NCBI RefSeq assembly: GCF_003722315.1
Contig: NZ_CP033580.1
Span: forward strand, 391,001 to 455,000
Direction: 5' to 3'
DNA from: Thermoanaerobacter ethanolicus JW 200
GTDB taxonomy: Bacteria > Bacillota > Thermoanaerobacteria > Thermoanaerobacterales > Thermoanaerobacteraceae
Length of the DNA: 64,000 nucleotides
The notes under the pieces are model-generated. The model saw nothing but the letters and a program-made list of their open reading frames with translations. It did no database searches and was not told the origin of the DNA. This document shows, one piece after another, positions 20,730 through 61,662 of the stretch; the first letter of the stretch is position 1, and every line of letters begins with the position of its first letter. The translations under genes and the position numbers were made by a program.

Positions 20730-20990
20730 ATAAAAGCGATGAAGGTGAGGGGTATGCGTTGAGGCTCAAGAGAGCCGGTGGATGGTGCAAACCGGTGCCG
20801 AGGCGCATATTAGATCGCTCTGGAGCTGTATAGCTGAACGGCGGTAAGCTTATTAGGCTATACCGGGATTACCCGTTACAGGTCAAGTTGTATAACTTGG
20901 TGAGGCTATTGCCGTGAGGTAATAGCGAAAACAGGTGGTACCGCGTGGAGGAAATCCCCGCCCTGTAATTTAGGGCGGGGAATGATTTTT
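20730..20990 (+). ncRNA. T-box leader of the ilv-leu operon
   Basis: A tRNA-sensing antitermination leader. Stem I closes with AGCGAT (20735-20740) and ATCGCT (20814-20819). The inner loop side ATTAG (20809-20813) holds the specifier: UUA (Leu) or AUU (Ile), and I cannot separate the two by eye. The conserved T-box core ACAGGTGGTACCGCG starts at 20931. Its UGGU would pair with the ACCA end of a tRNA with A73, as Leu and Ile tRNAs have. A terminator (20956-20990) follows. Uncharged tRNA should allow read-through into ilvN. Confidence 0.92.
20956..20990 (+). terminator. T-box regulated terminator of the ilv-leu leader
   Basis: CCCCGCCCT at 20956-20964 pairs with AGGGCGGGG at 20972-20980, followed by AATGATTTTT. 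The left arm and upstream T-box bases would form the competing antiterminator. Confidence 0.88.
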
Positions 20991-28197: not shown

Positions 28198-29858
28198 AGT
28201 TAAAAGGAGCGCAAGTAGTTATAGAAGTTTTAAAAGAGATGGGCGTTGATACTATATTTGGCATACCAGGAGGAGCAGTTATTCCCATTTATGATGCTCT
28301 TTATGACTCTGATATAAGGCATATTTTAGCTACTCACGAGCAAATGGCAGCCCATATGGCAGATGGTTATGCAAGAGTTACGGGAAGGGTAGGGGTTTGC
28401 TTTGCTACCTCTGGCCCCGGTTCTACCAATCTTGTAACGGGTATAGCTAATGCTTATATGGATTCAGTACCTGTTGTGGCGATAACAGGACAGGTTCCTA
28501 CAAATCTCATAGGGAAAGACGCTTTTCAAGAGGTTGACATAACAGGAATTACAATGCCTATAACTAAACACAACTTTATTGTAAAGTCTCCTGATAAACT
28601 GGCAGATACAATAAGGCAGGCATTTGCAATAGCCAAAAGTGGAAGGCCTGGTCCTGTGTTAGTTGATATTCCAAAAGATATGCAAAATGCCGATATAGAA
28701 TATGTTAAAGGAAAGGAAGATAGTATTAATATAAAAAACAATGTCAAGGGAATAGTTTCACAAAAAGAGTTAGACAAAGCTATAGAGCTTATTTTACAAA
28801 GTAAAAAACCTGTAATCTTTGCAGGAGGAGGAGTGATTTGGGGAGAAGCATCAGCCGAACTCATAGAATTTGCAGAGAAGACCAATATACCTGTTGCTAC
28901 TTCTTTAATGGGGTTAGGATGCTTTCCAGAAGACCATCCTTTGTCATTAGGTCTTATTGGCATGCATGGAAGTAGATTTGCAAATTTGGCTGTATATAGG
29001 TCAGACCTTGTGATAGCAATAGGGACAAGATTTAGCGACAGAGTCGCTGGCAAAGCAGGAGGACTTGCTCCAAATGCTAAAATAATCCATATTGATATTG
29101 ACCCTGCAGAATTAGGGAAAAATGTAGAAGTAGAGGTAGCAGTTATAGGCAAAGTAAAAGAAGTATTGAAACTTTTAACGAATAAACTTCCATTCATTGA
29201 GAGAAAAGAATGGTTAGAGGAAATTTCTTTCTTGAGAGAAAAGCACGGATTAAAGTATAAAAACGATGAAGTTTTGAGGCCTCAGTGGATAGTAGAAAAA
29301 ATTCAAGAAATTTCGAACGATGACCTTATAATAGCCACTGAAGTGGGACAAAATCAAATGTGGGCTGCCCAGTTTTATAAATTTAAACACCCCAGAACCT
29401 TTGTTACATCAGGGGGATTAGGGACAATGGGCTTTGGGCTTCCTGCTGCAATAGGAGCGCAAGTAGGAAGGCCAGATAAAAGAGTTGTAAACATTGCAGG
29501 TGATGGAAGTTTAAGAATGAATATACATGCCTTAGAAACAGCTGCTGTATATAATATTCCGGTTATAACGGTACTACTCAACAACCAAACTTTAGGCATG
29601 GTAAGACAGTGGCAAAATCTTTTGTATGACAAGAGATTTTCCCACACAGATTTGAACGCAAATTTGAATTTTGCTAAGCTTGCAAACGACTTTGGAGTAG
29701 AAGGAATAAGAGTTACAACAAAAGAAGAATTTGAAAAAGCGTTTAAAAAAGCCTATAGCGAAAAAAGACCTTTTATGATAGAATGTATTATAGACAAAGA
29801 TGAGATGGTGCTTCCATTTATCCCCGCGGGGGGAACTGTTGAAAATACAATTGGATAA
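28194..29858 (+). CDS. ilvB: Acetolactate synthase large (catalytic) subunit
   Basis: ThDP- and FAD-dependent synthase forming acetolactate and acetohydroxybutyrate. The N-terminal ThDP domain has [14 protein letters not shown] and the catalytic Glu in [17 protein letters not shown]. The middle domain binds FAD. The C-terminal ThDP motif is [15 protein letters not shown] with [12 protein letters not shown]. Length 554 is normal. The ATG overlaps the ilvD stop (ATGA type). It closes the ilv-leu operon. The FMN riboswitch of the rib operon starts 3 nt after its stop codon. Confidence 0.96.
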
Positions 29859-29860
29859 AA

Positions 29861-30005
29861 CCTTCAGGGATCGGTGAAATTCCGTACCGGCGGTATAGCC
29901 CGCGAGCCTTTTGGCAGACTCGGTGAAATTCCGAGGCCGACAGTTAAAGTCTGGATGGGAGAAGGAGAAATATTCCCCAGGGAATATATTCTCTGGGGTT
30001 TTTTT
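29861..30005 (+). ncRNA. FMN riboswitch (RFN element) with terminator
   Basis: FMN-sensing leader of the riboflavin operon. Conserved RFN blocks are visible: GGTGAAATTCCGTACCGGCGG, AGCCCGCGAGC, a second GGTGAAATTCCGAGGCCGAC, and AGTCTGGATGGGAGAAGG. P1 forms from CCTTC (29861-29865) and GAAGG (29961-29965). The terminator CCCCAG...CTGGGG (29975-29998) is followed by seven T. GAGAAATATTCC could pair with GGAATATATTCTC as the antiterminator, so the two folds exclude each other. No room for a separate promoter exists after ilvB. Confidence 0.95.
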
Positions 30006-35593: not shown

Positions 35594-35611
35594 ATTAAAA
35601 AACATAATATT

Positions 35612-35820
35612 GTCGGCAATGAAGGGACGAGTAGTAAGTATAAACTTTTAAGAGAGCTGGTGGTGGGTGCGAACCAGTAAGTTTTACTTATGAATTCCAT
35701 CCCGGAGCTAAGGTGTAATGACCTTCGGGCGACCGTTAAATCATGTGGAGGGCTTATTTAAGCCAAAAGAGGGTGGCAACACGGCATTCCCGTCCCTTTA
35801 TGGGACGGGAATTATTTTTA
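35612..35820 (+). ncRNA. T-box leader (serine) of serS
   Basis: tRNA-Ser-sensing antitermination leader. Stem I closes with GGGA (5' side, 35624) and TCCC. The specifier codon TCC (Ser) is at 35696-35698, followed by A. The T-box core GGGTGGCAACACGG starts at 35771. Its UGGC matches the GCCA 3' end of tRNA-Ser (G73), as in all four tRNA-Ser genes in this window. Terminator arms are ATTCCCGTCCC (35786-35796) and GGGACGGGAAT (35802-35812), then TATTTTT. The cognate reader of UCC is the GGA tRNA at 56485. Confidence 0.93.
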
Positions 35821-44123: not shown

Positions 44124-44303
44124 CGATTATTTGGACTTAAGCGACATTATTTTGTACAAAAGTGCCAAATTTCCTCCATTGGTGTAAGTGGTTATTAGTG
44201 GTATAATGATAATGGAAATTGCTAAAAAGTTAACTTTTGTTACAAAATGGTTGATGTCAGTTGATGTTTTGGCAAATAAAAATTTTATGGTGGGGTGGTA
44301 AAA

Positions 44304-45029
44304 ATGGCCAGTGTGACATTGCAGAATTATTATGACATTGTTATAGCAGGGGACTCTATTTCAAGGGGTGTAGTATACAGCGAAGAAAAAAATAAATATG
44401 TTATATCAGATGTAAATTATGTAAATTTACTAAAGAATAACATAAAAGGAACAGTAAAAAATATTGCTAAGTTTGGGAACACTCTTTTAAAAGGTATTGA
44501 CACTTTGAAGAGGTACTTGTCAAAAGATAAACCTGATATAGTTGTAATAGAATTTGGAGGAAATGACTGTGATTTCGACTGGGAAGAAATTGCAAAGAAT
44601 CCTTATGATGAGCATAGACCCAAAACAGATTTTTATATTTTTAAAGAAAAGCTTAAAGAATTGATAAAATCCTTAGATGATGCAAACATAATTCCTGTGT
44701 TAATGACATTACCTCCTTTGGATGCTGACAGATATTTTAAATGGATAAGTAAAAACAGTGAAGAGATGGGCAAAAACATTTTAAAGTGGTTAGGCAGTGT
44801 GACTAAAATATATTGGTGGCAGGAAAAGTATAACTCAGCTATATTGAGTATAGCTGAAGAAACAAAAACAAGGCTTATTGATATAAGGAGCGCTTTTTTG
44901 AATTACCCAGATTTTAGGCAATTTATTTGTGCAGATGGTATTCATCCTAATGAAAAAGGCCATAAAATAATAGCACATAAGATATATGAGTATCTGCAGA
45001 GAAATTATACATATCTTTTGAAAGAGTAA
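44304..45029 (+). CDS. SGNH/GDSL-type hydrolase
   Basis: Serine esterase-like fold of about 241 residues. Block I IAGDSISRGV has the nucleophile Ser, block III EFGGNDCD has the oxyanion Asn, and block V DGIHPNEKGHKI has the Asp-His pair. No signal peptide is present, so it acts in the cytoplasm. The substrate (acyl, acetyl or lipid ester) is unknown. The frame begins at GTG 44295. GGGGTGG at 44292-44298 better fits ATG 44304. It stands alone between a decayed region and the MBX operon; a link with the operon is not evident. Confidence 0.85.
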   Translation: MASVTLQNYYDIVIAGDSISRGVVYSEEKNKYVISDVNYVNLLKNNIKGTVKNIAKFGNTLLKGIDTLKRYLSKDKPDIVVIEFGGNDCDFDWEEIAKNPYDEHRPKTDFYIFKEKLKELIKSLDDANIIPVLMTLPPLDADRYFKWISKNSEEMGKNILKWLGSVTKIYWWQEKYNSAILSIAEETKTRLIDIRSAFLNYPDFRQFICADGIHPNEKGHKIIAHKIYEYLQRNYTYLLKE

Positions 45030-45209: not shown

Positions 45210-45238
45210 TTTACTATGAATGTTTTGTGTGATATAAT
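45210..45238 (+). promoter_or_regulatory. promoter of the MBX operon
   Basis: TTTACT (45210-45215) and TATAAT (45233-45238) with 17-bp spacing; transcription would start near 45245, leaving a leader of about 95 nt. Confidence 0.7.
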
Positions 45239-45244
45239 TTCAAG

Positions 45245-45340
45245 TGGAAATAATATATACCTCCCTAGAGTAAGGCGGTAATAAACGACGATACAGCGGA
45301 GCTTTATACGTGATACTAATGAAAATGGAGGTGTGACTAA
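45245..45340 (+). ncRNA. structured 5' leader of the MBX operon, candidate cation (Na+) riboswitch
   Basis: The leader holds a GC-richer block (CTAGAGTAAGGCGGTA, ACGACGATACAGCGGAGC) inside AT-rich DNA. Its ends can pair: ATACCTCC at 45257-45264 with GGAGGTGT at 45327-45334 (one G-U). The second arm is the Shine-Dalgarno of the first gene, so folding would hide it. The downstream genes are Mrp-type antiporter modules and a DUF1646-type cation transporter. RNA classes sensing Na+ (the DUF1646 motif) are known from such genes. I cannot confirm the consensus from memory, so the class is inferred. Confidence 0.55.
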
Positions 45341-45814
45341 TTGAGCAATTTGTTATTTATTTGGGTAGCGATGTTTTTGGTATGGACTGCATTGAATGCG
45401 CCACTATCAGCCCAAAAAACTATTTTTGGAATTATTTTATCATTTTTGATTGCAGTAATTGCTAATGTATATGATAAAGAGCAAAAAAAATTTAAATTAA
45501 AAACTTTTTTTTGTTTGATTAAATATTTCGTCGTGTTTTTAAAAGAACTTGTCAAAGCTAATTTGAATATGGCAAGAATAGTTTTGACTCCTTCTTTACC
45601 TATTTCGCCTAAGATTTTCAAGGTTACAACAAGCCTTAAGTCTCCAATAGCAAGAACATTACTTGCAAATTCTATAACTTTAACTCCAGGAACAATATCT
45701 GTAGAACTTGATGGGGATACATTATACATTCATGTGGTTGAGGGTGATAAAGTAGAAAACGTTGAAGATTTAAAAGGACCCTTTGAAAAGATTTTAAGGG
45801 AGGCTTTTGAATGA
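45341..45814 (+). CDS. mbxA: MBX complex subunit A (MrpE/MnhE-like)
   Basis: A 157-residue protein of the MnhE family. Two N-terminal membrane helices (NLLFIWVAMFLVWTALNAPLS and TIFGIILSFLIAVIA) are followed by VFLKELVKANLNMARIVL, a cytoplasmic MnhE domain with TLTPGTISVELDGDTLYIHVV and a conserved ending. First gene of a 13-gene operon. It starts at TTG 45341 with GGAGGTG at 7-nt spacing, the site that the leader can sequester. The part in Na+/H+ antiport is structural. Symbol assigned from operon order. Confidence 0.88.
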   Translation: MSNLLFIWVAMFLVWTALNAPLSAQKTIFGIILSFLIAVIANVYDKEQKKFKLKTFFCLIKYFVVFLKELVKANLNMARIVLTPSLPISPKIFKVTTSLKSPIARTLLANSITLTPGTISVELDGDTLYIHVVEGDKVENVEDLKGPFEKILREAFE

Positions 45815-46062
45815 TAATAAATGTTATTTTAGGATTAGTGATTTTCGGTCTTTTATTAAGCTTTATAAGGTTGGTAAGGAGCAGTTCAATTGAAAGCAAA
45901 GTGGTTGCTATTGACATTATGACAACTATTTCTTCGGGACTAATAGTGATTTTTGCTTTTATAAGCGATAACGGGTTATTTTTAGATGTGGCGCTGGTAT
46001 ATGGTATTTTGTCTTTTATTGGGGTTGTAGCAATAGCTCGTTATTTAGAAGGAGGAATTTAG
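45811..46062 (+). CDS. mbxB: MBX complex subunit B (MrpF/MnhF-like)
   Basis: An 83-residue protein with three membrane helices. It shows the MnhF pattern SFIRLVRSSSIESKVVAIDIMT and ends YGILSFIGVVAIARYLEGG. ATG 45811 overlaps the previous stop (ATGA). MrpF-type subunits belong to the ion-translocating module. It sits between the MrpE- and MrpG-like genes, as in Mrp and MBX operons. Confidence 0.88.
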   Translation: MIINVILGLVIFGLLLSFIRLVRSSSIESKVVAIDIMTTISSGLIVIFAFISDNGLFLDVALVYGILSFIGVVAIARYLEGGI

Positions 46063-46063
46063 T

Positions 46064-46378
46064 ATGCAGTATATTGGATACTTTTTCTTGCTTATTGGAG
46101 CTGTTTTTTTAGCGCTAGCAGGTCTCGGAATATATAGGATGCCGGATGTATTAAATCAATCTCAAGCGGGGACTAAAGCATCAACTATGGGGATTGTTGG
46201 ACTATTTATTGGTTTTGCTTTTCTTAAACCATTGTGGGCCCCCAAGTTAATTCTTATGGCATTGTTTTTTCTTTTTACTTCGCCGATTGCTTCACATGCA
46301 ATATGTAAGGCAGCGATAAAGAGAAATAAAGCAAAACTTATATTAAAAGAAAATGCTTTTTCAAAAGAAGGTGAGTAA
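46064..46378 (+). CDS. mbxC: MBX complex subunit C (MrpG/MnhG-like)
   Basis: A 104-residue protein with three membrane helices. It carries the MnhG motif GLGIYRMPDVLNQSQAGTKA, with FTSPIASHAICKAA near the end. It follows mbxB by 1 nt. With A and B it forms the small-subunit module of Mrp-type antiporters. Confidence 0.88.
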   Translation: MQYIGYFFLLIGAVFLALAGLGIYRMPDVLNQSQAGTKASTMGIVGLFIGFAFLKPLWAPKLILMALFFLFTSPIASHAICKAAIKRNKAKLILKENAFSKEGE

Positions 46379-46379
46379 T

Positions 46380-46622
46380 ATGTTTTTATCAGTAATTATT
46401 GCGGTTATTATGATATTTGGTGCTATGTGGACAATTGTAACTGAAGATTTATTTAAAGCTATTGTTATATTTGCAATAGTATCCCTTTCTTCTTCTATAA
46501 TGTTTTTACTTATGCAGGCGCCAGATGTTGCTATAACGGAAGCGGCTATAGGCTCGGGCATAACTACTGCTTTATTTATTTTCACATACAAAAAAGTGGA
46601 GGAGGAAAAAGATGAAAGATGA
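46380..46622 (+). CDS. mbxD: MBX complex subunit D (MbhD / DUF4040)
   Basis: An 80-residue, three-helix protein like MbhD and the C-terminal part of MrpA. The signature is LMQAPDVAITEAAIGSGITTALF. The frame extends upstream to 46353, but GAAGGTGAG upstream of ATG 46380 supports that start. The Asp and Glu in the signature lie in the proposed ion path of related complexes. It overlaps the next gene by 11 nt. Confidence 0.85.
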   Translation: MFLSVIIAVIMIFGAMWTIVTEDLFKAIVIFAIVSLSSSIMFLLMQAPDVAITEAAIGSGITTALFIFTYKKVEEEKDER

Positions 46623-47352
46623 AACATCTGTATTAGTAAATATTATTGCTTTTTTAATTCTCTTTGTGATAGGAATTTATATATATATTGTAGCTATTGA
46701 TACAGGAGCAGGAATAAAAATAACGGATAATATAACTCCTACCATGAGGGTGGCCGATAAATATCTAAACAAGAACGTGTTAGATGATAATAGCACATAT
46801 CAATGGGGAGGTACAGCTGAAGATACAGCTGCTAATATTGTAACTTCGGTTGTTGTTGATTATAGATTATTTGATACAACTCTTGAGGTAATAGTTTTAT
46901 TTATTACAATATTAGGTTTTGGCTTTGTTATTCCTAAAGACAAGAGAAAGATAATTAAACCTACCACTATACTTAACAGGTGGGCGCCAATTCTGATGCT
47001 GCTTATGCTTATGATAGGGGGATACACATTTATTAATGGACACTTATCTCCTGGAGGGGGTTTCCCGGCAGGTGCTATTATATCGACGGCTATTTTGACG
47101 GGTGTTTTGACTGGAAGGAGAACAATAAGTCAAAAATCCCTTAAAATAATAGAGGCAATAACAGGTATATCAATATTTTCCATCGGAATCATAAGCTATT
47201 TTCTAACTGGTAGCTTCTTTCAGAATTTTATATTAAATGACAAGATAGGAGATCTATTTTCAGGTGGCTTGATACCTATATTTTATGGTTTAATAGCCTT
47301 TAAAGTTGCTGCTGAGCTTTCAAATATCTATTTTGAATTTTATGAGGAGTGA
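46612..47352 (+). CDS. mbxF: MBX complex subunit F (MbhE-like segment fused to MrpB/MnhB)
   Basis: A 246-residue membrane protein in two parts. The first 110 residues resemble MbhE (one helix, then NIVTSVVVDYRLFDTTLEVIV). The rest is an MnhB domain with the hallmark FINGHLSPGGGFPAGAI and further helices. Separate E and F genes occur in some Mbh operons; here they appear as one protein, as the MBX order without a separate E gene would need. It overlaps mbxD. Confidence 0.82.
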   Translation: MKDETSVLVNIIAFLILFVIGIYIYIVAIDTGAGIKITDNITPTMRVADKYLNKNVLDDNSTYQWGGTAEDTAANIVTSVVVDYRLFDTTLEVIVLFITILGFGFVIPKDKRKIIKPTTILNRWAPILMLLMLMIGGYTFINGHLSPGGGFPAGAIISTAILTGVLTGRRTISQKSLKIIEAITGISIFSIGIISYFLTGSFFQNFILNDKIGDLFSGGLIPIFYGLIAFKVAAELSNIYFEFYEE

Positions 47353-47356
47353 TGTT

Positions 47357-47719
47357 ATGACGCAAGTTTTTATACTGTCCTCCCTTTCTCTTATGTTTAT
47401 AGGTCTATATGGAGTTTTGACGAGAAAAAATTTACTAAAAATAATTATAGCGCTAAATATTATAGAAACAGGTATCAACTTACTTTTGGTTTCCTTTGGA
47501 TACATTGATCATGGAATAACACCTATTTTAACTTCACAGGAGAGTATACTTAACCTAAATAAAATGGTAGATCCAGTTCCACAGGCGCTTGTTCTTACAT
47601 CAATAGTTATAGGCTTGGGAACAACTGCATTTGCTTTAGCATTGGCAATACGATACAAAATTACTCATAATTCTATTTTAATAAATGCATCTGAAGAGGA
47701 AGAGGGAAGAGGTATATGA
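47357..47719 (+). CDS. mbxG: MBX complex subunit G (MrpC/NuoK-like)
   Basis: A 120-residue, three-helix protein of the MnhC/NuoK family. It shows FIGLYGVLTRKNLLKIIIALNIIETGINLLL, split by me into its two blocks: GLYGVLTRKN and LNIIETGINLLL with the conserved membrane Glu, and DPVPQALVLTSIVIGLG. The frame opens at 47306, but GAGGAG at 47344-47349 selects ATG 47357. It overlaps mbxH by 4 nt. Confidence 0.88.
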   Translation: MTQVFILSSLSLMFIGLYGVLTRKNLLKIIIALNIIETGINLLLVSFGYIDHGITPILTSQESILNLNKMVDPVPQALVLTSIVIGLGTTAFALALAIRYKITHNSILINASEEEEGRGI

Positions 47720-49179
47720 ATAGCATAGTTTTTCTAGTTGTAATACCAATTATTGCGGCGTTTTTATCTTTATTTTTAGGCAAGGTGAATAAATTAATTG
47801 CATATATAGTTACAATTTTTAACTTATCTTTTTCTGTAGTTGTCCTTGTAAGTGGGAAAATACCCTTTAATGTTGCAATTGGAGGTTGGAGGGCTCCATA
47901 TGGAATAAACTTTGTTGTTACTGATATCACAATTTTCTTTTTACTACTTATTAATGTAGCAGCAGTTCTTTCACTGACAACAATAAAGGAACATATGGAG
48001 TACCAATTCTATGCTTTCTATTTTATACTACTTGCTGCGACTAATGGTATGGTTTTGACAGGTGATATATTTAACTTTTATCTTTTTACAGAGCTTACTA
48101 CCTTTGCAATTGGAGGACTTGTGGCGTACAAAAGAGATAGATTAGCTACAGGTGCATCACTAAAATATTTAATATTATCATCAACTGCATCTATTTTTAG
48201 CTTAGCAGCAATAGGCCTCATATACAAGACTTTGGGGACCCTTAATTTTGCAGACATAGCCAGCAAAATTTCTAATTTAAACAAGGCATCATTATCTTTA
48301 ATTTTAATACTTTTTATTTCTAGTATGTTGGTTGAACTGAAGATTTTTCCTTTTAACCTTTGGGTTGTAAAGGCTTATGATGCTTCTATTCCAGCAGTAA
48401 ATCTTTTTCTTCATGGGATGGTTAGCACTGCCGGTGTATATGGGGCAATAAGAATACTTCTTATGGTATTTTCAAAAAATGGTGTAATGTCAGATCAAAG
48501 TAGCAACATAGCAAATATTTTAATATTGTTAGCTTTTATAACAGTAATGATTGGCGAAATTGGAGCTTTGACAGAAAAAAATTTAATTAAAGTTTTGGCG
48601 TTTTCCTCTATGGCACAACTTGGTATATTCCTGTTTGGAATAAGTTTAGGCAATTATGAAGCACTAAAAGGAGCATTTTATATAGTTATATCAAACTATT
48701 TTGCGAAACTTATAATGTTTATTGTTGCAAAAAATTATTCTGTTGTTGCAGGAAGCAGAAATTACAACGCGATGAAAGGATTAGGGAGAAAATATCCTGG
48801 ACTCGCGATAGCTTTTACAATATCAGCTTTAAGTCTTATGGGAATGCCTTTTTTCGCAGGATTTTGGGGTAAACTTTCCATAGTTGGAAATGCACTTTTA
48901 ATGGACAAAATTGCCATTACAGGTGTAATAATAATACTGATTTCCTCTGTAATTGAAGGTGTTTATTATCTTAGAATATCTCATACATTTTTTAGTGATG
49001 GAAATATTCAAGACACTAAATTATCAAGGATTAATTGCGTGCTACCAATAATTTTAGCGGCGGTTATTTTGATTATAGGGATATATCCAAATTCAATTGA
49101 AAATATAATATGGACGATGATAAATGAAATACAGAATACACCAGAAAAATATATACAAGTAATTTTGCCTTTAAAGTGA
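47716..49179 (+). CDS. mbxH: MBX complex subunit H (MrpD/NuoN-like antiporter subunit)
   Basis: A 487-residue protein with about 14 membrane helices of the complex I/Mrp antiporter family. The conserved Glu is in FNFYLFTELTTFAIGGLVAY. The conserved Lys lies in the broken helix ELKIFPFNLWVVKAYDASI, and a second ion-path stretch is IGEIGALTEKNLIKVLAFSSMAQ. It pumps H+ or Na+ when coupled to the redox arm. One of two such subunits in this operon. Confidence 0.9.
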   Translation: MNSIVFLVVIPIIAAFLSLFLGKVNKLIAYIVTIFNLSFSVVVLVSGKIPFNVAIGGWRAPYGINFVVTDITIFFLLLINVAAVLSLTTIKEHMEYQFYAFYFILLAATNGMVLTGDIFNFYLFTELTTFAIGGLVAYKRDRLATGASLKYLILSSTASIFSLAAIGLIYKTLGTLNFADIASKISNLNKASLSLILILFISSMLVELKIFPFNLWVVKAYDASIPAVNLFLHGMVSTAGVYGAIRILLMVFSKNGVMSDQSSNIANILILLAFITVMIGEIGALTEKNLIKVLAFSSMAQLGIFLFGISLGNYEALKGAFYIVISNYFAKLIMFIVAKNYSVVAGSRNYNAMKGLGRKYPGLAIAFTISALSLMGMPFFAGFWGKLSIVGNALLMDKIAITGVIIILISSVIEGVYYLRISHTFFSDGNIQDTKLSRINCVLPIILAAVILIIGIYPNSIENIIWTMINEIQNTPEKYIQVILPLK

Positions 49180-49189
49180 GGGTGAGACT

Positions 49190-51064
49190 ATGGTAGAAAT
49201 TTTACTGGTTCCTCTTATAACAGCAGTTATATCGGCTATTTTTATAAAAAACAAGCGGCTCGTATGGTTTCTTTTTCTGATTTCTAATGGCTATATATTA
49301 TATAAACTTTACTCATTGTATGGAAAGTGGGATTTAACTTATATATTAAACACTGATTACCAAATATTTGGTGCAAAACTAAGTTTAGGACTTTCAAATA
49401 ATCCTTTAGGATGGTATTTTGCCTTTTTCTCGGCTGTTGTTACCTTAGTAATTGCTATATTTTCTATAGGATTTAATACAAACTCTAAAGGAAATGTAGC
49501 TCCTATATGGATGCTAATTATATTTGCTAATCTTGGAATATTCTATGCAGCAGATTGGATAACATTTTTTATGATGTGGGAACTAATGGGATGGACATCT
49601 TTTTTCGCAATAACCAATGGAAATACTAAAGCATTAGATGGTGCAAAATATTACTTGGCTCTTTCTCTTCTTGGTGGGTCTTCCATGTTAATTGCAATAT
49701 TACTGCTTGGTGCATATACTAAAACTTTTATTATTATTACTTCTGCTTATAGATTGATCCAGCTGTTTAATTTGGCAGAAGGTGTTTTTACAACAATATT
49801 ACTTTTGTTTATTATGGCATTCTTCATAAAATCGGCAATATTTCCATTTTACATGTGGCCTTCAAAAGTATATGCTGTAGGTCCTGAAGATTACATTGCG
49901 TTTATGTCTTCAGTAATGATAAAATATGGCATTTATCCTATGGCAATATTCATAGTTCCTGTAATTGGGAATTTACAACTTCCTAAGATATTTAATGCAG
50001 GTAATTGGATGCAATATTTTATTGGTTATCTTGGAGCGCTTAGTGCTGTTGTAGGGACTTTACTTGCTATGTTTCAGACTGATATGAAAAAATTATTTGC
50101 GTATTCCTCTGTGGCAAACATGGGATATATACTTTTAGGTTTCGCATCTATGAGTATAGTAGGTTTTGAAGGTTCGCTTTTCCATGTTGTTAATCATATT
50201 GTTTTAAAAGCTGCGATATTTTTATCTCTTGCTGCTGTAGTGTATAGGACGGGTGAGAGTGAGATGCACAAATTAGGTGGACTTGTATATAAAATGCCTA
50301 TTACTTTTTTGACATTTCTTTTTGGAATAATAGCAGCAGCAGGAATACCACCGCTTAATGGCTTTGGCTCAAAGTGGATGATAATACAAGCGCTTATGGA
50401 GAAGAAGATGGTTGTTCTTGTAATATCCATGGTATTTGCATCAACCGGAGCGTTTATGTATTTATTTAGGGCACTTGTTTCTATATTTTTAGGACAACTT
50501 CCCGAAAGATATAAGGATGTAAAAGAGGTACCATATACAATGTCAATACCCATGATTATAATGATGGGCTTGATGCTTCTAATTGGTGTGGTACCAGGGG
50601 TTGTGATGAAACCATTAACTATTGCACTGGATGCATTAGGGTATAAAGTTGATATCGCTACTTGGACTACTCTTAGTTCGTCTTTTAAAAATGCGACGAT
50701 AGATTTAAAAATAGTATTTTACATGTTTGCTATGGGTATTGTAGTTGCAGCTTTGATGTATTTGTTTGGAAACAAATCCGAAACTGTACCACAGCATGAT
50801 AATTACACAGCAGGAGAGAACCCAATAGAATGGGGAGTTGATGCAGACAAGTTTAACTATTCTTATTCATTTTACCAACCATTTAAGGAGATGTTTGACC
50901 CGCTTTTTGAAAGAATTTCAATAGATAGATTTTTTTCAAGTATAGGTAAAAATTTTGAATATATAAGCCCAACCATTCAAGGGTTGTATAAAAGAGGAGA
51001 AGGAGCAGTGTTGCTTTTTAGCATTGGTGTTCTCTTATTGATATTAGGAGGTTGGATTTTATGA
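49190..51064 (+). CDS. MBX complex subunit H' (second NuoL/MrpA-like antiporter subunit)
   Basis: A 624-residue protein of the same antiporter family with about 15-16 helices. The key Glu is in TFFMMWELMGWTSFFA, the Lys-bearing helix is FFIKSAIFPFYMWPSKVYAV, and MKKLFAYSSVANMGYI and HIVLKAAIFLSLA follow. The C-terminal part has an extra loop and a final helix, like the anchoring helix of NuoL-type proteins. Having a second H gene (H') is the mark of MBX over Mbh operons. AGGGTGAG precedes ATG 49190. Confidence 0.88.
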   Translation: MVEILLVPLITAVISAIFIKNKRLVWFLFLISNGYILYKLYSLYGKWDLTYILNTDYQIFGAKLSLGLSNNPLGWYFAFFSAVVTLVIAIFSIGFNTNSKGNVAPIWMLIIFANLGIFYAADWITFFMMWELMGWTSFFAITNGNTKALDGAKYYLALSLLGGSSMLIAILLLGAYTKTFIIITSAYRLIQLFNLAEGVFTTILLLFIMAFFIKSAIFPFYMWPSKVYAVGPEDYIAFMSSVMIKYGIYPMAIFIVPVIGNLQLPKIFNAGNWMQYFIGYLGALSAVVGTLLAMFQTDMKKLFAYSSVANMGYILLGFASMSIVGFEGSLFHVVNHIVLKAAIFLSLAAVVYRTGESEMHKLGGLVYKMPITFLTFLFGIIAAAGIPPLNGFGSKWMIIQALMEKKMVVLVISMVFASTGAFMYLFRALVSIFLGQLPERYKDVKEVPYTMSIPMIIMMGLMLLIGVVPGVVMKPLTIALDALGYKVDIATWTTLSSSFKNATIDLKIVFYMFAMGIVVAALMYLFGNKSETVPQHDNYTAGENPIEWGVDADKFNYSYSFYQPFKEMFDPLFERISIDRFFSSIGKNFEYISPTIQGLYKRGEGAVLLFSIGVLLLILGGWIL

Positions 51065-51945
51065 TAGCAGCTATAAGAGTTTTTGGTTACAGTTTGTTTG
51101 CAATATTTATTGGACTTTTATTTATGGGAATAGGAAGGAAGATTATTGCAAGAATTCAGTTGAGATTAGGCCCACCATTTTATCAGGCATTTTTAGATGT
51201 AGGAAAACTCTTTGCCAGAAAGTCCATAACACACAATTTTGTGATGGACCTTGGTATGATAATGTCGCTTGCGGGACTACTGTCAACTATGCTATTTGTT
51301 CCAGTAGCTGGACATATGGCTATAAAGAGTAGTTCTAATCTAATTCTAATAATTTACCTTATGGCCATTGGACATCTTGGAATGGCGATGGCAGCTTCTG
51401 CTAGTGGAAATCCCAATGCAACAATTGGTGTATCTCGTGCACTTACAATGATGCTGGGATATGAAATTCCGTTTTTTACAGTAATGTTAGGATTAATAAT
51501 TTTTAATGGGACTTCTTCTCTTGAGCTTATTGCGCAAAGTCAGGCAGGTGGATTATTGAATTGGAATATGGTTAAATTTCCGCTTGGATTTTTAGCAGCT
51601 GAAATTGCATTACAAGCGATAATGGGAGAAAAACCATTTGATGCAATGGTAGCACCTGCTGAGATAGCTTCAGGACCTATGGTGGAGCTTGGTGGTAAGT
51701 ACCTGGGACTTGCATTTTTGACACATGCAGTTTCAATTTTTGTTGAAACGGGGATAATGGTAAATTTATTTATGGGCGGTGCTTCAAATGTATTTACTTT
51801 TGTATTAAAACAATTTGAAATATATTTAATTACTGTACTTATTGAGGCCGTATTCCCGAGATTTAGAATAGAGCAGGCAGTTAAATTTCTCTGGACTGTT
51901 CCCATGAGCATTGCAGTTGTCCAGCTTGCGATAATATTATTGTAA
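51061..51945 (+). CDS. mbxM: MBX complex subunit M (NuoH/EchB-like membrane anchor)
   Basis: A 294-residue, eight-helix protein that joins the peripheral redox arm to the membrane arm. It shows QLRLGPPFYQAFLDVGKLF and the quinone-cavity-like loop EKPFDAMVAPAEIASGPMVE plus LGGKYLGL. The frame extends to TTG 51052, but AGGAGG precedes ATG 51061, which also overlaps the previous stop. In Mbh/MBX the cavity does not bind quinone (family knowledge). Confidence 0.88.
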   Translation: MIAAIRVFGYSLFAIFIGLLFMGIGRKIIARIQLRLGPPFYQAFLDVGKLFARKSITHNFVMDLGMIMSLAGLLSTMLFVPVAGHMAIKSSSNLILIIYLMAIGHLGMAMAASASGNPNATIGVSRALTMMLGYEIPFFTVMLGLIIFNGTSSLELIAQSQAGGLLNWNMVKFPLGFLAAEIALQAIMGEKPFDAMVAPAEIASGPMVELGGKYLGLAFLTHAVSIFVETGIMVNLFMGGASNVFTFVLKQFEIYLITVLIEAVFPRFRIEQAVKFLWTVPMSIAVVQLAIILL

Positions 51946-51968
51946 GATAATAGAAGGGGGCAATTTGA

Positions 51969-52565
51969 ATGGAAGATTTAAAGGCTAATGATAAAAGAAG
52001 CTATATTGATAATTTGATAGATTTTTTTAGAAAAAGATCTATATGGATGCTTCATTACTGTACAGGTTGCGGAGCAGTGGAACTGCCGCCTTCAATGACA
52101 TCCAGGTGGGATATTGAAAGATTTGGCATAGTGCCAATGGCGACGCCAAGACAGGCAGATGTCCTTTTAGTAACAGGATATGTTTCGTTGAAGACATTAA
52201 AGAGGATTATAAAGATTTATGAACAAATGCCAGAACCCAAATGGGTTTTAGCATTTGGTTCGTGTACAGTAAATGGAGGAATTTACTGGGATTCTTATAA
52301 CACCATAACAAATCTTGCGGAATATATTCCTGTTGATATTACTGTATCGGGCTGTATGCCTAGGCCAGAAGCAGTTATAGATGCATTGCAAACGCTAATG
52401 GAGATGATACAGTCTGGCGAGGGAGGAGCGTACAAAAAATACAAAGAAAACTATGAATACTATAAAAAGAACCAGGATAGAGTTTTAAGGAAAACAGCCC
52501 CAATATTAGGAAGCAGCGAAACAGAGTCAATTTATCAAGAAAAGGAGGGGAATTATGAAACTTGA
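51969..52565 (+). CDS. mbxJ: MBX complex subunit J (NuoB / NiFe-hydrogenase small-subunit-like)
   Basis: A 198-residue Fe-S protein that carries the proximal [4Fe-4S] cluster next to the large subunit. Four ligands are visible: Cys31 and Cys34 (HYCTGCGAVELPPS), Cys99 (FGSCTVNGG) and Cys129 (SGCMPRPEAVIDAL). The CxxC spacing matches energy-converting hydrogenases and MBX rather than the adjacent CC of complex I. The C-terminal 40 residues are a charged tail. It overlaps mbxK by 11 nt. Confidence 0.92.
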   Translation: MEDLKANDKRSYIDNLIDFFRKRSIWMLHYCTGCGAVELPPSMTSRWDIERFGIVPMATPRQADVLLVTGYVSLKTLKRIIKIYEQMPEPKWVLAFGSCTVNGGIYWDSYNTITNLAEYIPVDITVSGCMPRPEAVIDALQTLMEMIQSGEGGAYKKYKENYEYYKKNQDRVLRKTAPILGSSETESIYQEKEGNYET

Positions 52566-53031
52566 TAAGGAAAGCATAATAGAACTTTTAAATCAAAAAG
52601 GAGTAGAGGTTTTAGACCTTTATCCAAATCAAATAAGTGTAAATATTAAAAAAGATAACCTCTTAAACCATTTGGTATTTTTAAGGTCAATAGGTTTTGA
52701 TCATCTATCATTTATAAATGCAGTTGATTTTATAGATGAAGGTGAATTTGAACTTGTTTATCATGTTTGGTCTTACACCCATAAAATTCATGTTTTAAAC
52801 AAAGTAAGAATAAGCAGAAATAATCCTGTTATACCAACGATAGTAAATCTTTGGGAACAAGCGCAGTTTTATGAGCAAGAAATACACGAGTTTTTTGGGA
52901 TAATTTTTGAGGGAAACAAAGATTTATCTCCTTTGTTCTTGGAAAATTGGGTAGATATACCGCCGCTTAGAAAAGATTTTGATACAAAAGAGTTTTCTGT
53001 AAGATTGTTTGGTGCCGAGATAAGGAGGTGA
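52555..53031 (+). CDS. mbxK: MBX complex subunit K (NuoC-like)
   Basis: A 158-residue soluble subunit of the 30-kDa NuoC/EchD family. It shows FLRSIGFDHLSFINAVDFID, then VPTI-like PVIPTIVNLWEQAQFYEQEIHEFFG, quoted here in part as WEQAQFYEQEIHEFFGI, and PPLRKDFDTKEF. It has no cofactor and supports the L subunit. It ends 3 nt before mbxL. Confidence 0.88.
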   Translation: MKLDKESIIELLNQKGVEVLDLYPNQISVNIKKDNLLNHLVFLRSIGFDHLSFINAVDFIDEGEFELVYHVWSYTHKIHVLNKVRISRNNPVIPTIVNLWEQAQFYEQEIHEFFGIIFEGNKDLSPLFLENWVDIPPLRKDFDTKEFSVRLFGAEIRR

Positions 53032-53034
53032 TAT

Positions 53035-54183
53035 ATGATGGATTCACCATCATATATGTTGAGCAAAATAGCTGAAAAAGACAATTTAACTGTATACGAG
53101 CTTTTTTTTGGTCCTAATCATCCAGGAATGCATGGTAATTTTGGCTATGTACTTGAAATGATAGGGACAGAAATAGTTAAAGTTAGACCCAATGCAGGAC
53201 ATTTGCATAGAGGATTTGAAAAATTAATGGAACAGAAGCTGTGGGTTCAAAATATAGCACTTGTTCCTAGAATATGTGTTGCTGATCCAGATCCCAATGA
53301 AGTAGCCTATTGTACAGCCATTGAAAAGATACTAAGGGTTGACATCCCAGATAGAGCAAAATTTTTAAGAACAATCACTCTTGAAATGAGCAGGCTGTCT
53401 TCTTTCTTAATGGGAATGGGTGCCCTTGCTGCAGCTGTAGGTCTATATACGGCTATGAACATTATGACCGCCGATAGGGACTTAATACTTGATTTATTCG
53501 AATGGTTAACAGGAGCAAGAGTATACCACATGTTTAGCATACCAGGAGGCGTTAGAAATGATTTGCCTGATGGTTTTGTAGAAAGACTATATAAAGTATT
53601 GGACCATTTAGAAAAAAGGCTAATTGAATATGATAAATTACTGTTTGAAAATCCTATAATCCACAAAAGATTAAAAGGATTAGGTTATGTCTCTAAAGAA
53701 GATGCAGTAAAATATGGGCTTACTGGCCCGAATCTTAGAGCATCAGGTAACCCCTATGATGTAAGAGTTGATGATCCATATGCAGCTTACCCCTACCTTG
53801 ACGTTAGAGTAATAACACAAGAAGGTGGAGATGCATTAACTAGGGCTATTCAAATAAGATTGGAGTTTGAAGAAACGATTAATCTTATAAGGCGGGCACT
53901 TAAGACTATGCCAGAAGGAGAGATTAGACTAAATCTTGGAAATCTTTCGGCACTTAAAGTGCCAAAAGGAGAAGCATATGCAAAAGTTGAATCGTCAAAG
54001 GGAGAGTTTGGATATTATGTAGTGTCAGACGGCGGAATGAAGCCATACAGAGTTGCGGTTAGAGGTCCTTCTCTTCCTGCAGGATTACTGCTTGCGCAAA
54101 AACATCTTCCCAAAATGAAAATAGATGATGTAGCTGCGTGGATGGCATCACTTGCAATTTGTCCGCCTGATATAGATAAATAG
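53035..54183 (+). CDS. mbxL: MBX complex subunit L (NuoD / NiFe-hydrogenase large-subunit-like, NiFe ligands incomplete)
   Basis: A 382-residue catalytic-arm subunit. GPNHPGMHGNFG and RPNAGHLHRGFEKLME match the 49-kDa/large-subunit family. The NiFe motif RxCGxC reads RICVADPD, so Cys81 stays and the second Cys is Asp84. At the C-terminus, the usual DPCxxC reads AICPPDIDK, so Cys376 stays and Asp379 replaces its partner. It therefore should not bind NiFe. This is how archaeal MBX/MBS large subunits differ from Mbh. The protein ends right after that motif without a processed tail. Start ATG 53035 or 53038 after GGAGGTGAT. Confidence 0.92.
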   Translation: MMDSPSYMLSKIAEKDNLTVYELFFGPNHPGMHGNFGYVLEMIGTEIVKVRPNAGHLHRGFEKLMEQKLWVQNIALVPRICVADPDPNEVAYCTAIEKILRVDIPDRAKFLRTITLEMSRLSSFLMGMGALAAAVGLYTAMNIMTADRDLILDLFEWLTGARVYHMFSIPGGVRNDLPDGFVERLYKVLDHLEKRLIEYDKLLFENPIIHKRLKGLGYVSKEDAVKYGLTGPNLRASGNPYDVRVDDPYAAYPYLDVRVITQEGGDALTRAIQIRLEFEETINLIRRALKTMPEGEIRLNLGNLSALKVPKGEAYAKVESSKGEFGYYVVSDGGMKPYRVAVRGPSLPAGLLLAQKHLPKMKIDDVAAWMASLAICPPDIDK

Positions 54184-54198
54184 GAGGGAAGTAATGAT

Positions 54199-54687
54199 AT
54201 GTCACTGGGAGATAAGAGTGTATATTCCCCGCTTACTAATCTTAAAAATTTATTTAAAAAACCTATGACAGTAAAATATCCCAAAGAAATTTTGAAAGTG
54301 TTTCCAAAAGATGGCGTATCGCCTATTTATAGAGGGCTTCATACCAATGATTTAAACAAATGTATTGGATGTGGAATGTGCCAGAGAATATGTCCTTTCG
54401 ATGCTATAGAAATGAAAGTTATTGGCGAAAATGAGCAAGGCAGAGCTATTAAAAAACCAGTTGTTGATTATGGAAGGTGTAGTTTTTGTGGATTTTGCGT
54501 AGATGTTTGTCCAACTAACTCATTAAAGATGTCAAGACATTATATATACAAAGTAAAGACAGTAAAATCGATGAGTGCAAAGGAAGAGGTAGAGCATATA
54601 AAGCAAAAATTTAAGCTTCTGCCGGATGAATCTTTGGGAGATGATATAGGGTATAATACTGGGAAAACCAAGAAAATATTAGGATAA
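54199..54687 (+). CDS. mbxN: MBX complex subunit N (NuoI-like two-cluster ferredoxin)
   Basis: A 162-residue electron-entry subunit with two [4Fe-4S] motifs: Cys55, 58, 61, 65 (CIGCGMCQRICPFDAI) and Cys94, 97, 100, 104 (CSFCGFCVDVCPTNSL). It probably takes electrons from reduced ferredoxin. An N-terminal stretch FKKPMTVKYP resembles the NuoI membrane-facing region. The last MBX gene. The next gene follows after 56 nt. Confidence 0.92.
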   Translation: MSLGDKSVYSPLTNLKNLFKKPMTVKYPKEILKVFPKDGVSPIYRGLHTNDLNKCIGCGMCQRICPFDAIEMKVIGENEQGRAIKKPVVDYGRCSFCGFCVDVCPTNSLKMSRHYIYKVKTVKSMSAKEEVEHIKQKFKLLPDESLGDDIGYNTGKTKKILG

Positions 54688-54743
54688 AAATTACTCATTG
54701 TGATTATATTGATAAACATATGCAAAAGTAGGAGGTATAATAT

Positions 54744-55766
54744 ATGGTAACAGCATTAGTTGTAATTTTGGTGCTTATTCTGTTATTGCCATTTGTGGTA
54801 AAACAAGTAGAACACAATTTGGAATATTTTTTATTTACAATGGGAATTATATCTGTAATTGTGTCAAAACAATTTAGTGCAGAATTGTTTTTCCATATTT
54901 TCAAAAATCCACTCATTTACTATATTACTTTAGCAGTTTTGATTGCAGGGTTAATTTTTACATTGTTAAAAGAAAAATTGAAAATAGGTGTTGAAAAAGT
55001 TGCAGATAAAATATCTTTGAGGCTTTTTGCATTCATTATAATCGTGGTACTTGGGCTTATGTCAAGCATTATTACAGCAATAATTGCCTCTTTGGTTTTG
55101 GTTGAAGTCGTAAACTACTTGCCTCTTACTAGAAAAAACAAAATAAATTTAATTGTCATTGCTTGTTTCTCCATAGGCCTTGGTGCTGTTTTAACGCCTG
55201 TAGGGGAGCCACTGGCTACTATTGTTGTATCCAAGTTACATGCCGACTTCTTTTATCTTGCACGATTAATAGGTATTGATATAATAATTGCAATTTTAGC
55301 TCTTGGATTAATAGGAACATTTTTTGCAAAAAGAGAAAGTGGGATAGGTGAGCCTACAGAAGATGTTGAGGCAGATGAGAATATAAAAGAAGTATTCATT
55401 AGAGCTTTTAAAGTATTCGTCTTTATTTTTGCATTAGAGCTACTTGGAACAGGTTTTAAGCCTATAATTGATTTATATATTGTTAAAATGAAAAGTGAGC
55501 TTTTATACTGGGTAAATACAATTTCCGCAATTGTTGATAATGCTACGCTAGCAGCAGCAGAAATTTCTCCATCAATGACGCCGGAACAGATAAGAGCTAT
55601 TTTAATGGGAATGCTTATTAGTGGAGGGATGTTAATTCCAGGTAATATTCCAAACATCATTTCAGCGGGAAAATTAAAAATAAAAAGTACAGAATGGGCA
55701 CGAACTGCTGTTCCTCTAGGTGCAATACTTTTGATAGTGTATTATATTGTATTGTTTGTGATCTAA
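54744..55766 (+). CDS. DUF1646-type predicted cation transporter
   Basis: A 340-residue membrane protein with about ten hydrophobic helices. It has an internal acidic loop (GIGEPTEDVEADENIKE). Two ion-transporter-like re-entrant motifs are seen, GAVLTPVGEPLATIVVSKL and AIVDNATLAAAEISPSM plus MLIPGNIPNIISAGKLK, like those of NhaD/ArsB and related ion transporters. I assign it to DUF1646 (predicted cation transporter) by overall look, not by search. AGGAGGT precedes ATG 54744. Its place after a Na+/H+-antiporter-type operon and the leader RNA supports a role in Na+ balance. Confidence 0.65.
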   Translation: MVTALVVILVLILLLPFVVKQVEHNLEYFLFTMGIISVIVSKQFSAELFFHIFKNPLIYYITLAVLIAGLIFTLLKEKLKIGVEKVADKISLRLFAFIIIVVLGLMSSIITAIIASLVLVEVVNYLPLTRKNKINLIVIACFSIGLGAVLTPVGEPLATIVVSKLHADFFYLARLIGIDIIIAILALGLIGTFFAKRESGIGEPTEDVEADENIKEVFIRAFKVFVFIFALELLGTGFKPIIDLYIVKMKSELLYWVNTISAIVDNATLAAAEISPSMTPEQIRAILMGMLISGGMLIPGNIPNIISAGKLKIKSTEWARTAVPLGAILLIVYYIVLFVI

Positions 55767-55788
55767 ATAAATTCAAGTAGGAGTATAC

Positions 55789-61574: not shown

Positions 61575-61662
61575 ATAACAGAAGGCGATGGAGCTCGCCA
61601 TAAATGCGGAAACGCTGATGGCTCCTATTAGGATGATATAAGGCCTAATAGGAGCTTTTTAT
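61575..61662 (+). ncRNA. Fluoride riboswitch (crcB motif) with terminator
   Basis: The conserved core GGCGATGGAGCTCGCCATAA (61584 on) is followed by ATGCGGAAACGCTGATGGCTCC, quoted as CGGAAACGCTGATGGCTCC. This is the crcB-motif fold. Terminator arms are GCTCCTATTAGG (61621-61632) and CCTAATAGGAGC (61644-61655), then TTTTTATT. The left arm overlaps the aptamer's CTGATGGCTCC, so fluoride binding should block termination and turn crcB on. Confidence 0.95.

Follow-up and report, generated by a model that had tools for sequence, protein, structure and literature searches.

The window analysed here is a 64,000-nucleotide stretch of the Thermoanaerobacter ethanolicus JW 200 genome (2.91 Mb, one contig), and its element of interest is an operon for a predicted multisubunit complex of the MBX/MBS type, in which codon 31 of the NuoB-like subunit J is a cysteine codon here and an in-frame TGA in five relatives. 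The list of open reading frames (ORFs) together with Pfam gave 13 consecutive, intact ORFs on the forward strand between 45341 and 54687, each with the expected domain, encoding the subunits A-B-C-D-E(F)-G-H-H′-M-J-K-L-N (Table 1). Of the 58 relatives that were read, 49 have all 13 genes in this order, so that the arrangement is not due to chance; in the remaining nine, 5′ genes are missing (in one of them N as well) where the contig is short or starts inside the operon, and for L033 weak matches also give a different order. The 13-gene operon described in an earlier note on this DNA is thus borne out in gene set and order, with two corrections. The MrpB-like gene (246 aa) matches MbsE in place and size, a protein described as an E+F fusion in MBS (PMC8415708), and is better listed as E/F; for D and G, ATG codons at 46380 and 47357 are likelier starts than those given by the ORF finder (46353 and 47306).

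Six of the 13 subunits (L, J, H, H′, M and N) were compared with solved structures by phmmer. MBS of Pyrococcus furiosus (6u8y) was the best solved relative of L, J, H, H′ and M, and N gave a tie between MvhB (100.0 bits) and MbsN (99.4 bits). In the alignment, Cys81 and Cys376 of L correspond to C85 and C385 of MbsL, and Asp84 and Asp379 stand at the positions of the other two hydrogenase cysteines. Among the relatives, Cys81 is present in 57 of 57 loci and Cys376 in 56 (the last one is cut off), with aspartate or glutamate as the CxxC partners, and P. furiosus MBS retains the same two L cysteines (PMC7684303). The J subunit carries a CTGC motif with MbsJ spacing and the cysteines 31, 34, 99 and 129, the last two being the equivalents of C93 and C123; it reads WMLHYCTGCGAVE as against WVLHYNCSSCNGCDIE in the genome's own hydrogenase, and the shortening of the J motif has been described for MBS (PMC7684303). 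By eye, the acidic and lysine residues of H′ also align with MBS. The hydrogenase in question (L005), a separate group-4 NiFe enzyme encoded about 107 kb downstream next to hyp genes (named by eye), carries the two CxxC pairs that are missing from the operon L, which distinguishes MBX from hydrogenase inside one genome.

A tree of L was built from 105 rows, with L055 dropped and with long outgroup branches that were flagged by the program. In it, 100 MBX/MBS rows formed one group (support 100, starred) apart from group-4 hydrogenase and complex I; inside this group a 15-row branch of P. furiosus MBS and Thermococcus-type kin (95, starred) stands beside 85 others (83), and the Thermotogota rows make up another branch (T. 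maritima itself and strain 3DAC lie outside the tree). In the J tree (61 of 63 rows, those with a J of 120 residues or fewer being dropped; one MBS, two NDH-1 and one hydrogenase as references), J grouped with P. furiosus MBS on a branch of 88, a lower support than in the L tree. As for the marks of complex I, Nqo4 Tyr87 aligns with V82 of L, and the NuoB-like subunit has CTGC instead of adjacent CC; H33 of L aligns with Nqo4 H38, for which reason we file the operon under the bacterial MBX branch and not under archaeal MBS proper. By these marks the operon is of the MBX/MBS type, and neither a hydrogenase nor complex I. A group-4 NiFe hydrogenase (Mbh/Ech) or complex I could be argued from the Mrp and Nuo subunits that are common to them and from the database names, which read 'NADH-quinone oxidoreductase', but we give this identification practically no chance given an L without both CxxC pairs and with Tyr87 replaced by Val82, the absence of NuoE/F/G genes from the operon (ORF list and Pfam), and the scores and trees. 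The family named in the earlier note, for which the phylogeny of L and J had been proposed as a check, was supported in that both subunits fall with P. furiosus MBS.

We surveyed J codon 31 in 57 loci and in L152. Three contigs (L015, L023 and L047) were too short, and in the 55 readable loci the codon specifies cysteine in 50 and is an in-frame TGA in 5: Caloramator australicus (L009), C. proteoclasticus (L010), Thermobrachium celere (L011), a Clostridiales metagenome-assembled genome (L012), and L152, where the operon of genome G018 holds all 13 genes and has TGA at the same J position. The genus Thermoanaerobacter has kept cysteine at this site, and cysteine is also found in the Thermotogota loci that were read. 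A pattern search through 17 genomes of the family of G011 found the motif in six, five with TGA and one with TGT (G014, Caloramator sp. mosi_1). The assembly of the latter (L062) has several operon genes and selB in pieces, perhaps through sequencing errors.

It is very probable, from comparison of the coding sequences and from the gene content of these genomes, that TGA is read as selenocysteine in the five relatives. When the window genes were compared with the 57 loci, 17 in-frame stops were found, and only the four at J31 meet a cysteine; the 13 others meet other residues or a gap. Downstream of the TGA, pairwise non-synonymous divergence (dN) was 0.01-0.09 against a synonymous divergence (dS) of 0.42-1.59 (L009-L012 and L062), as expected under purifying selection. 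Four of the five TGA genomes entered the tests for SelB and tRNA-Sec (G018 lay outside them). SelB scored above the cut-off in all four (G010-G013) and in none of three Thermoanaerobacter genomes (G000, G001 and G003); it was also above the cut-off in G015 and G016, where J has cysteine, and in pieces in the frameshift-rich assembly G014. With Rfam, all ten genomes passed the tRNA-Sec cut-off of 47, seven with 65-71 bits and three, all Thermoanaerobacter, with 48. ARAGORN called tRNA-SeC in all seven high scorers, including the four TGA genomes; the one Thermoanaerobacter hit given to it, the best of G000 (L139), came out as tRNA-Ser.

A hairpin, GGUGG-AGUUR-CCACC, lies 14 nt past the TGA in all five TGA loci and is also present in the cysteine-coding L062. 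Against synonymous shuffles it is modest, with fractions of 0.027, 0.047, 0.142 and 0.127 in L009-L012 and 0.034 in L062, rows that are close kin and hence not independent of one another; the same fractions were 0.36-0.81 in L013, L008, L014, L016, L017 and the window. These modest values, the weaker fold of L152 as compared with the other TGA loci, and an Rfam scan after the TGA that was made for L010 and found no family of the selenocysteine insertion sequence (SECIS) type would all suit true stops or assembly errors in a broken J gene, as would the public record P0230, in which the J protein begins after the TGA. Such an explanation is nonetheless very improbable, as it would have to account for an identical codon in place of one otherwise invariant cysteine in five separate genomes, for stops that meet cysteine at J31 only, for a dN far below dS, and for the presence of SelB and tRNA-SeC in the four genomes tested. 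Full-text literature searching returned, among the matches listed, no report of selenocysteine at this J site.

The direction of the exchange between cysteine and selenocysteine was approached with a 13-subunit tree, which has an open fork between Thermoanaerobacter and two groups of Caloramator; a tree holding Thermoanaerobacter and five outgroup rows apart from the other six rows was not rejected (p-AU 0.185). Support for joining Thermoanaerobacter with the Caloramator group is 100/100 in the 13-subunit tree, and Clostridium tepidiprofundi is more distant. This grouping fits a transfer between lineages, and transfer has been argued for a nearby case (PMC4596419). Within the genus, an MBX L subunit (100% identical) was found in 3 of 10 Thermoanaerobacter genomes. 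In the record of one carrier, T. wiegelii Rt8.B1, mbxA is frame-shifted (L008 from 2316) and it is whole in the window; the complex of that strain may be incomplete, or the record wrong.

With regard to mechanism, the subunits are consistent with a ferredoxin-driven pump. The N subunit has eight cysteines in two ferredoxin-type motifs, predicted to hold two 4Fe-4S clusters, and J is predicted to hold the proximal 4Fe-4S cluster. On the model of P. furiosus MBS, electrons would pass from reduced ferredoxin through the two N clusters to the J cluster, whose ligands would be Cys34, Cys99 and Cys129 and which would leave one iron open to substrate. Sulfane sulfur (polysulfide) would be reduced at this proximal cluster, with residue 31 most likely as the substrate-facing chalcogen beside the open iron. 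The energy of the reaction is predicted to be used to pump Na+ or H+: by analogy with MBS, proton movement would fall to H, H′ and D/E/G, and the exchange of protons for Na+ to A-B-C together with the end of E/F. We put the probability that this MBX/MBS-type complex takes reduced ferredoxin as donor and sulfane sulfur as acceptor at roughly 0.6. In P. furiosus it is this J motif that leaves one iron open for the reduction of polysulfide, and C25 of MbsJ there lies about 12 Å from the open cluster (PMC7684303); in addition, mbxA of T. maritima was up 4.36-fold with sulfur (PMC9431562) and 10 of 13 MBS genes were up with sulfur in strain 3DAC (PMC10356935). A search for the sulfur partner enzyme (TIGR03385) found none above the cut-off in ten genomes, and as it also found none in 14 controls including T. 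maritima it is uninformative.

Several observations weigh against polysulfide as acceptor, or against parts of the scheme. The N subunit is no nearer to MbsN than to a polyferredoxin (99.4 against 100 bits). At the position of the quinone-site His38 of complex I, which P. furiosus MBS does not have, L carries His33 (over 57 loci the residue is His in 41, N in 6, P in 6, E in 3 and S in 1); the substrate pocket may therefore be a different one, and polysulfide may not be the acceptor. In the genome one ATP synthase c subunit was found (G000:C1:1198207), and it looks proton-type, as it seems to lack the Gln and Ser known as Na+ ligands; a Na+ cycle is thus not a given. Pointing the other way, i.e. 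to a Na+ cycle, monensin inhibits growth of T. wiegelii (cited in PMC3608648). In P. furiosus, J with Cys25 changed to Ala had comparable activity on dimethyl trisulfide (PMC7684303), which argues against a catalytic role of the position equivalent to 31 in that organism. Finally, MBX has been assigned as a ferredoxin:NAD(P)+ oxidoreductase (PMC3608648, PMC4596419).

If that assignment were right, the complex would provide an Rnf-like energy conservation in genomes without Rnf, and the genus does show such a pattern: RnfC was found above the cut-off in 3 of 10 genomes and MBX L in 3 of 10 with no overlap, and the same split between Rnf and MBX by clade has been described (PMC3608648). Zero overlap between two sets of three in ten, however, has a chance of about 0.29 before kinship is considered, and the genomes are few. 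NAD(P)+ is disfavoured because Pfam matched no flavin or nucleotide-binding domain in any of the 13 operon genes and because the J motif is MBS-like; the cysteines of J and L together follow the MBS pattern, for which sulfane reduction has been shown (PMC7684303). We therefore regard the NAD(P)+ reading as unlikely. The earlier note had left the choice between NAD(P)+ and sulfane sulfur open, and the J motif now favours the latter. Somewhat less probable still is another small oxidised compound (an organic disulfide, or a selenium or arsenic compound) that would be reduced through residue 31 and the open iron. Such an acceptor could explain why J31 is Cys or TGA in 55 of 55 loci while its P. 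furiosus equivalent is replaceable on a model trisulfide (PMC7684303), and why His33 differs from P. furiosus MBS; an ArsR-like regulator before the operon in Caloramator-type loci and a divergent transporter in L010-L012 and L062, arsenite/bile-acid exporter-like by eye, would agree with it. These signs are only indirect, however, and no operon gene indicates a named substrate. Sulfane sulfur remains the acceptor that we prefer.

The presence of cysteine or predicted selenocysteine in 55 of 55 loci makes it unlikely that residue 31 is idle in bacteria, and the TGA form would mark J31 as functionally important in the Caloramator-type branch. Whether the selenocysteine is catalytic we judge to be evenly balanced. 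The wider proposal, in which MBX of Caloramator and Thermobrachium would be a selenoenzyme with a substrate-facing, catalytic selenocysteine in J, about 12 Å from the open proximal cluster should the geometry be that of MBS, and Cys31 would do the same work in Thermoanaerobacter, is tentative, at odds a shade below even. What is new here is the predicted selenocysteine form of MBX J in relatives, the operon of the window itself being known. MBX and MBS are regarded as intermediates on the way from hydrogenases to complex I, and their substrates in bacteria are unsettled; a natural Cys/Sec pair by the proximal cluster singles out one residue and would offer a handle on the mechanism of this enzyme class. 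If true, it would be a new place for selenium chemistry in the complex I superfamily, and bacterial MBX would have a chalcogen-plus-open-iron mechanism, unlike P. furiosus MBS, which acts on a model substrate even when its equivalent cysteine is replaced. For annotation, the public record P0230 is an example of a J protein whose start was placed beyond the TGA. For the window, the gain is modest: the family was checked residue by residue, and the leader RNA and the DUF1646 link treated below were withdrawn.

Table 1. Features of the operon and its surroundings in the window, with the TGA positions of relatives in their own loci.
Feature	Position	Strand	Basis and remarks
GDSL-type lipase, upstream neighbour	44295..45029	+	PF13472, 75.1 bits
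Promoter-like site TTTACT-17-TATAAT	45210..45238	+	Sequence pattern; conserved in the 3 operon-bearing genomes of the genus
5′ untranslated stretch (earlier 'leader RNA')	45245..45340	+	About 95 nt before the first gene
A subunit, MrpE/MNHE-like	45341..45814	+	PF01899, 129.5 bits
B subunit, MrpF-like	45811..46062	+	PF04066 (MrpF_PhaF), 60.2 bits
C subunit, MrpG-like	46064..46378	+	PF03334 (PhaG_MnhG), 73.4 bits
D subunit	46353..46622	+	PF13244 MbhD, 74 bits; likely start ATG 46380
E/F subunit, MrpB-like, 246 aa	46612..47352	+	PF04039 (MnhB), 65.3 bits, residues 120-236
G subunit, MrpC/NuoK-like	47306..47719	+	PF00420 (Oxidored_q2), 76.9 bits; likely start ATG 47357
H subunit, MrpD-like ion-pump subunit	47716..49179	+	Proton_antipo_M; 6u8y_H 217.6 bits, next 148.8
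H′ subunit, second antiporter-like	49190..51064	+	Proton_antipo_M; 6u8y_X (MBS) 247.8 bits, next 133.2
M subunit, NuoH-like	51052..51945	+	NADHdh; 6u8y_M 192.9 bits, next 80.2
J subunit, NuoB-like	51969..52565	+	Oxidored_q6; 6u8y_J 239.8 bits, next 135.8
J codon 31	52059..52061	+	TGT, Cys31 = P. furiosus MbsJ Cys25; TGA in five relatives
TGA at J codon 31 in relatives	L009:8992, L010:9035, L011:9035, L012:9035, L152:10755		
K subunit, NuoC-like	52555..53031	+	PF00329 (Complex1_30kDa), 109.7 bits
L subunit, NuoD-like	53035..54183	+	Complex1_49kDa; 6u8y_L 346.2 bits, Thermus Nqo4 250, MbhL 131.7
N subunit, NuoI-like	54199..54687	+	PF00037/PF12838 (Fer4); 6u8y_N 99.4 bits, MvhB polyferredoxin 100
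DUF1646 membrane protein	54744..55766	+	PF07854, 521.7 bits; 56 bp after the N gene

At the 5′ end of the operon, the promoter-like site is the likely start of the transcript, on evidence that is weak: such sites occur in the region at chance frequency (56 found, 53.8 expected). The untranslated stretch that follows it had been taken for a leader RNA belonging to the operon, a claim that we do not uphold. Rfam gave no family match in it, its fold goes only slightly beyond shuffled sequences (z −1.66, with 15 of 200 shuffles equally good), and the whole stretch occurs in only 3 of 10 Thermoanaerobacter genomes, which are the operon carriers and hold near-identical copies; by eye it was not recognisable upstream of the operon in L009-L013, L016, L017 and L062. 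A short second match in five genomes is the promoter stretch before another gene, and ACCTCC (45259) within the stretch could pair with a ribosome site GGAGGT. The DUF1646 motif is a Na+ riboswitch (PMC9337991), and it was considered for the DUF1646 neighbour; no Rfam match to it was found within the window. Elsewhere in the window Rfam reported ordinary elements, namely a fluoride riboswitch (61575-61634), an FMN riboswitch (29856-29970) and two T-box leaders (20730-20968 and 35610-35800). The gene directly before the operon, a GDSL lipase in the window, is an ArsR-like regulator (named by eye) in L009-L012, L062 and L152, and a desulfoferrodoxin-like gene (named by eye) stands further upstream in L009-L012 and L062.

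At the 3′ end, three terminator-like sites were found between 44900 and 56300, all on the reverse strand and none on the forward strand, and co-transcription of the operon with the DUF1646 gene is possible. The earlier note had regarded this gene as a linked cation transporter and had proposed a joint Na+ cycle. The adjacency is real here, but it is not a property of the operon: among 51 loci with at least 1.2 kb beyond N, DUF1646 follows in two only (L008 and L014), so that among the loci read the linkage is confined to Thermoanaerobacter, and in G005 and G006, where the operon is absent from this place, a DUF1646 gene precedes tadA. We accordingly rejected DUF1646 as a part of the system, and the joint Na+ cycle drawn from it is not supported by the linkage. 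A full-length DUF1646 is present in 7 of 10 genus genomes compared with 3 of 10 for MBX L. The three without it (G003, G007 and G008) are the genomes with RnfC, a coincidence uncorrected for kinship. Copies of the DUF1646 gene that include its ribosome site (window 54730-55782) and have almost identical ends also occur elsewhere: T. wiegelii has three copies, and G002 has one at another place (L008:11696-12738, L008:20082-21132, L117:8094-9144 and L114:10369-11419).

Likely deletion scars of the operon are seen in two relatives. In G006, 155 bp of the N gene (96.8%) are left between DUF1646 and the lipase (L116:9516-9762) and adjoin a 93-bp piece that matches elsewhere in the window; the remnant is best read as a deletion scar. 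In G003 (L108/L094) the lipase side (45054) runs straight into the final fifth of DUF1646 (55556). Loss of the operon is thus likely for the lineage of G006, and other lineages may have lost it too. A separate Mrp set in G003, with 26-44% identity to the A-B-C-D-F genes of the window, may be the 'mbx remnants' named for clade 1.

The operon of the window is already known and in print for the genus. A 13-gene mbx cluster was described in 2013 for Thermoanaerobacter clade 3 (T. siderophilus, T. thermohydrosulfuricus and T. wiegelii), with Rnf in other clades (PMC3608648), and in 2015 for Caldanaerobacter subterraneus yonseiensis, with the same lipase and cation transporter as neighbours and 97% identity to T. 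wiegelii (PMC4596419). Bacterial MBX/MBS with sulfur induction (PMC9431562, PMC10356935) and a putative Mrp-Mbx in tubeworm symbionts (PMC11636981) have also been reported. The occurrence in a bacterium, presented earlier as a surprise, is therefore none, being published for Thermoanaerobacter, Caldanaerobacter, Thermotoga and others. The clade 3 cluster has the same 13 genes as the window, and L is 100% identical in T. wiegelii; neither the Cys/Sec position nor the loss scar is mentioned in the excerpts of the Thermoanaerobacter and Caldanaerobacter papers. MBX of T. maritima and MBS of strain 3DAC are, like that of the window, 13-gene bacterial clusters, and theirs are sulfur-induced.

P. 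furiosus MBS (6u8y) shares with the window the subunit set and order, the two L cysteines and the short CTGC in J. It differs in L, where the window has His33 and a one-residue longer loop at the place where MBS reads MATE-N, and in J, where its equivalent of residue 31 is described as tolerating Ala whereas the bacterial loci have Cys or TGA in 55 of 55. Other Cys/Sec pairs are known, those of the NiFeSe hydrogenases among them, in which some relatives have selenocysteine instead of a cysteine that lies at a metal site or close to it. The predicted exchange at J31 resembles that of the NiFeSe hydrogenases, and differs from it in that the residue would lie beside the iron-sulfur cluster of a relative of complex I.

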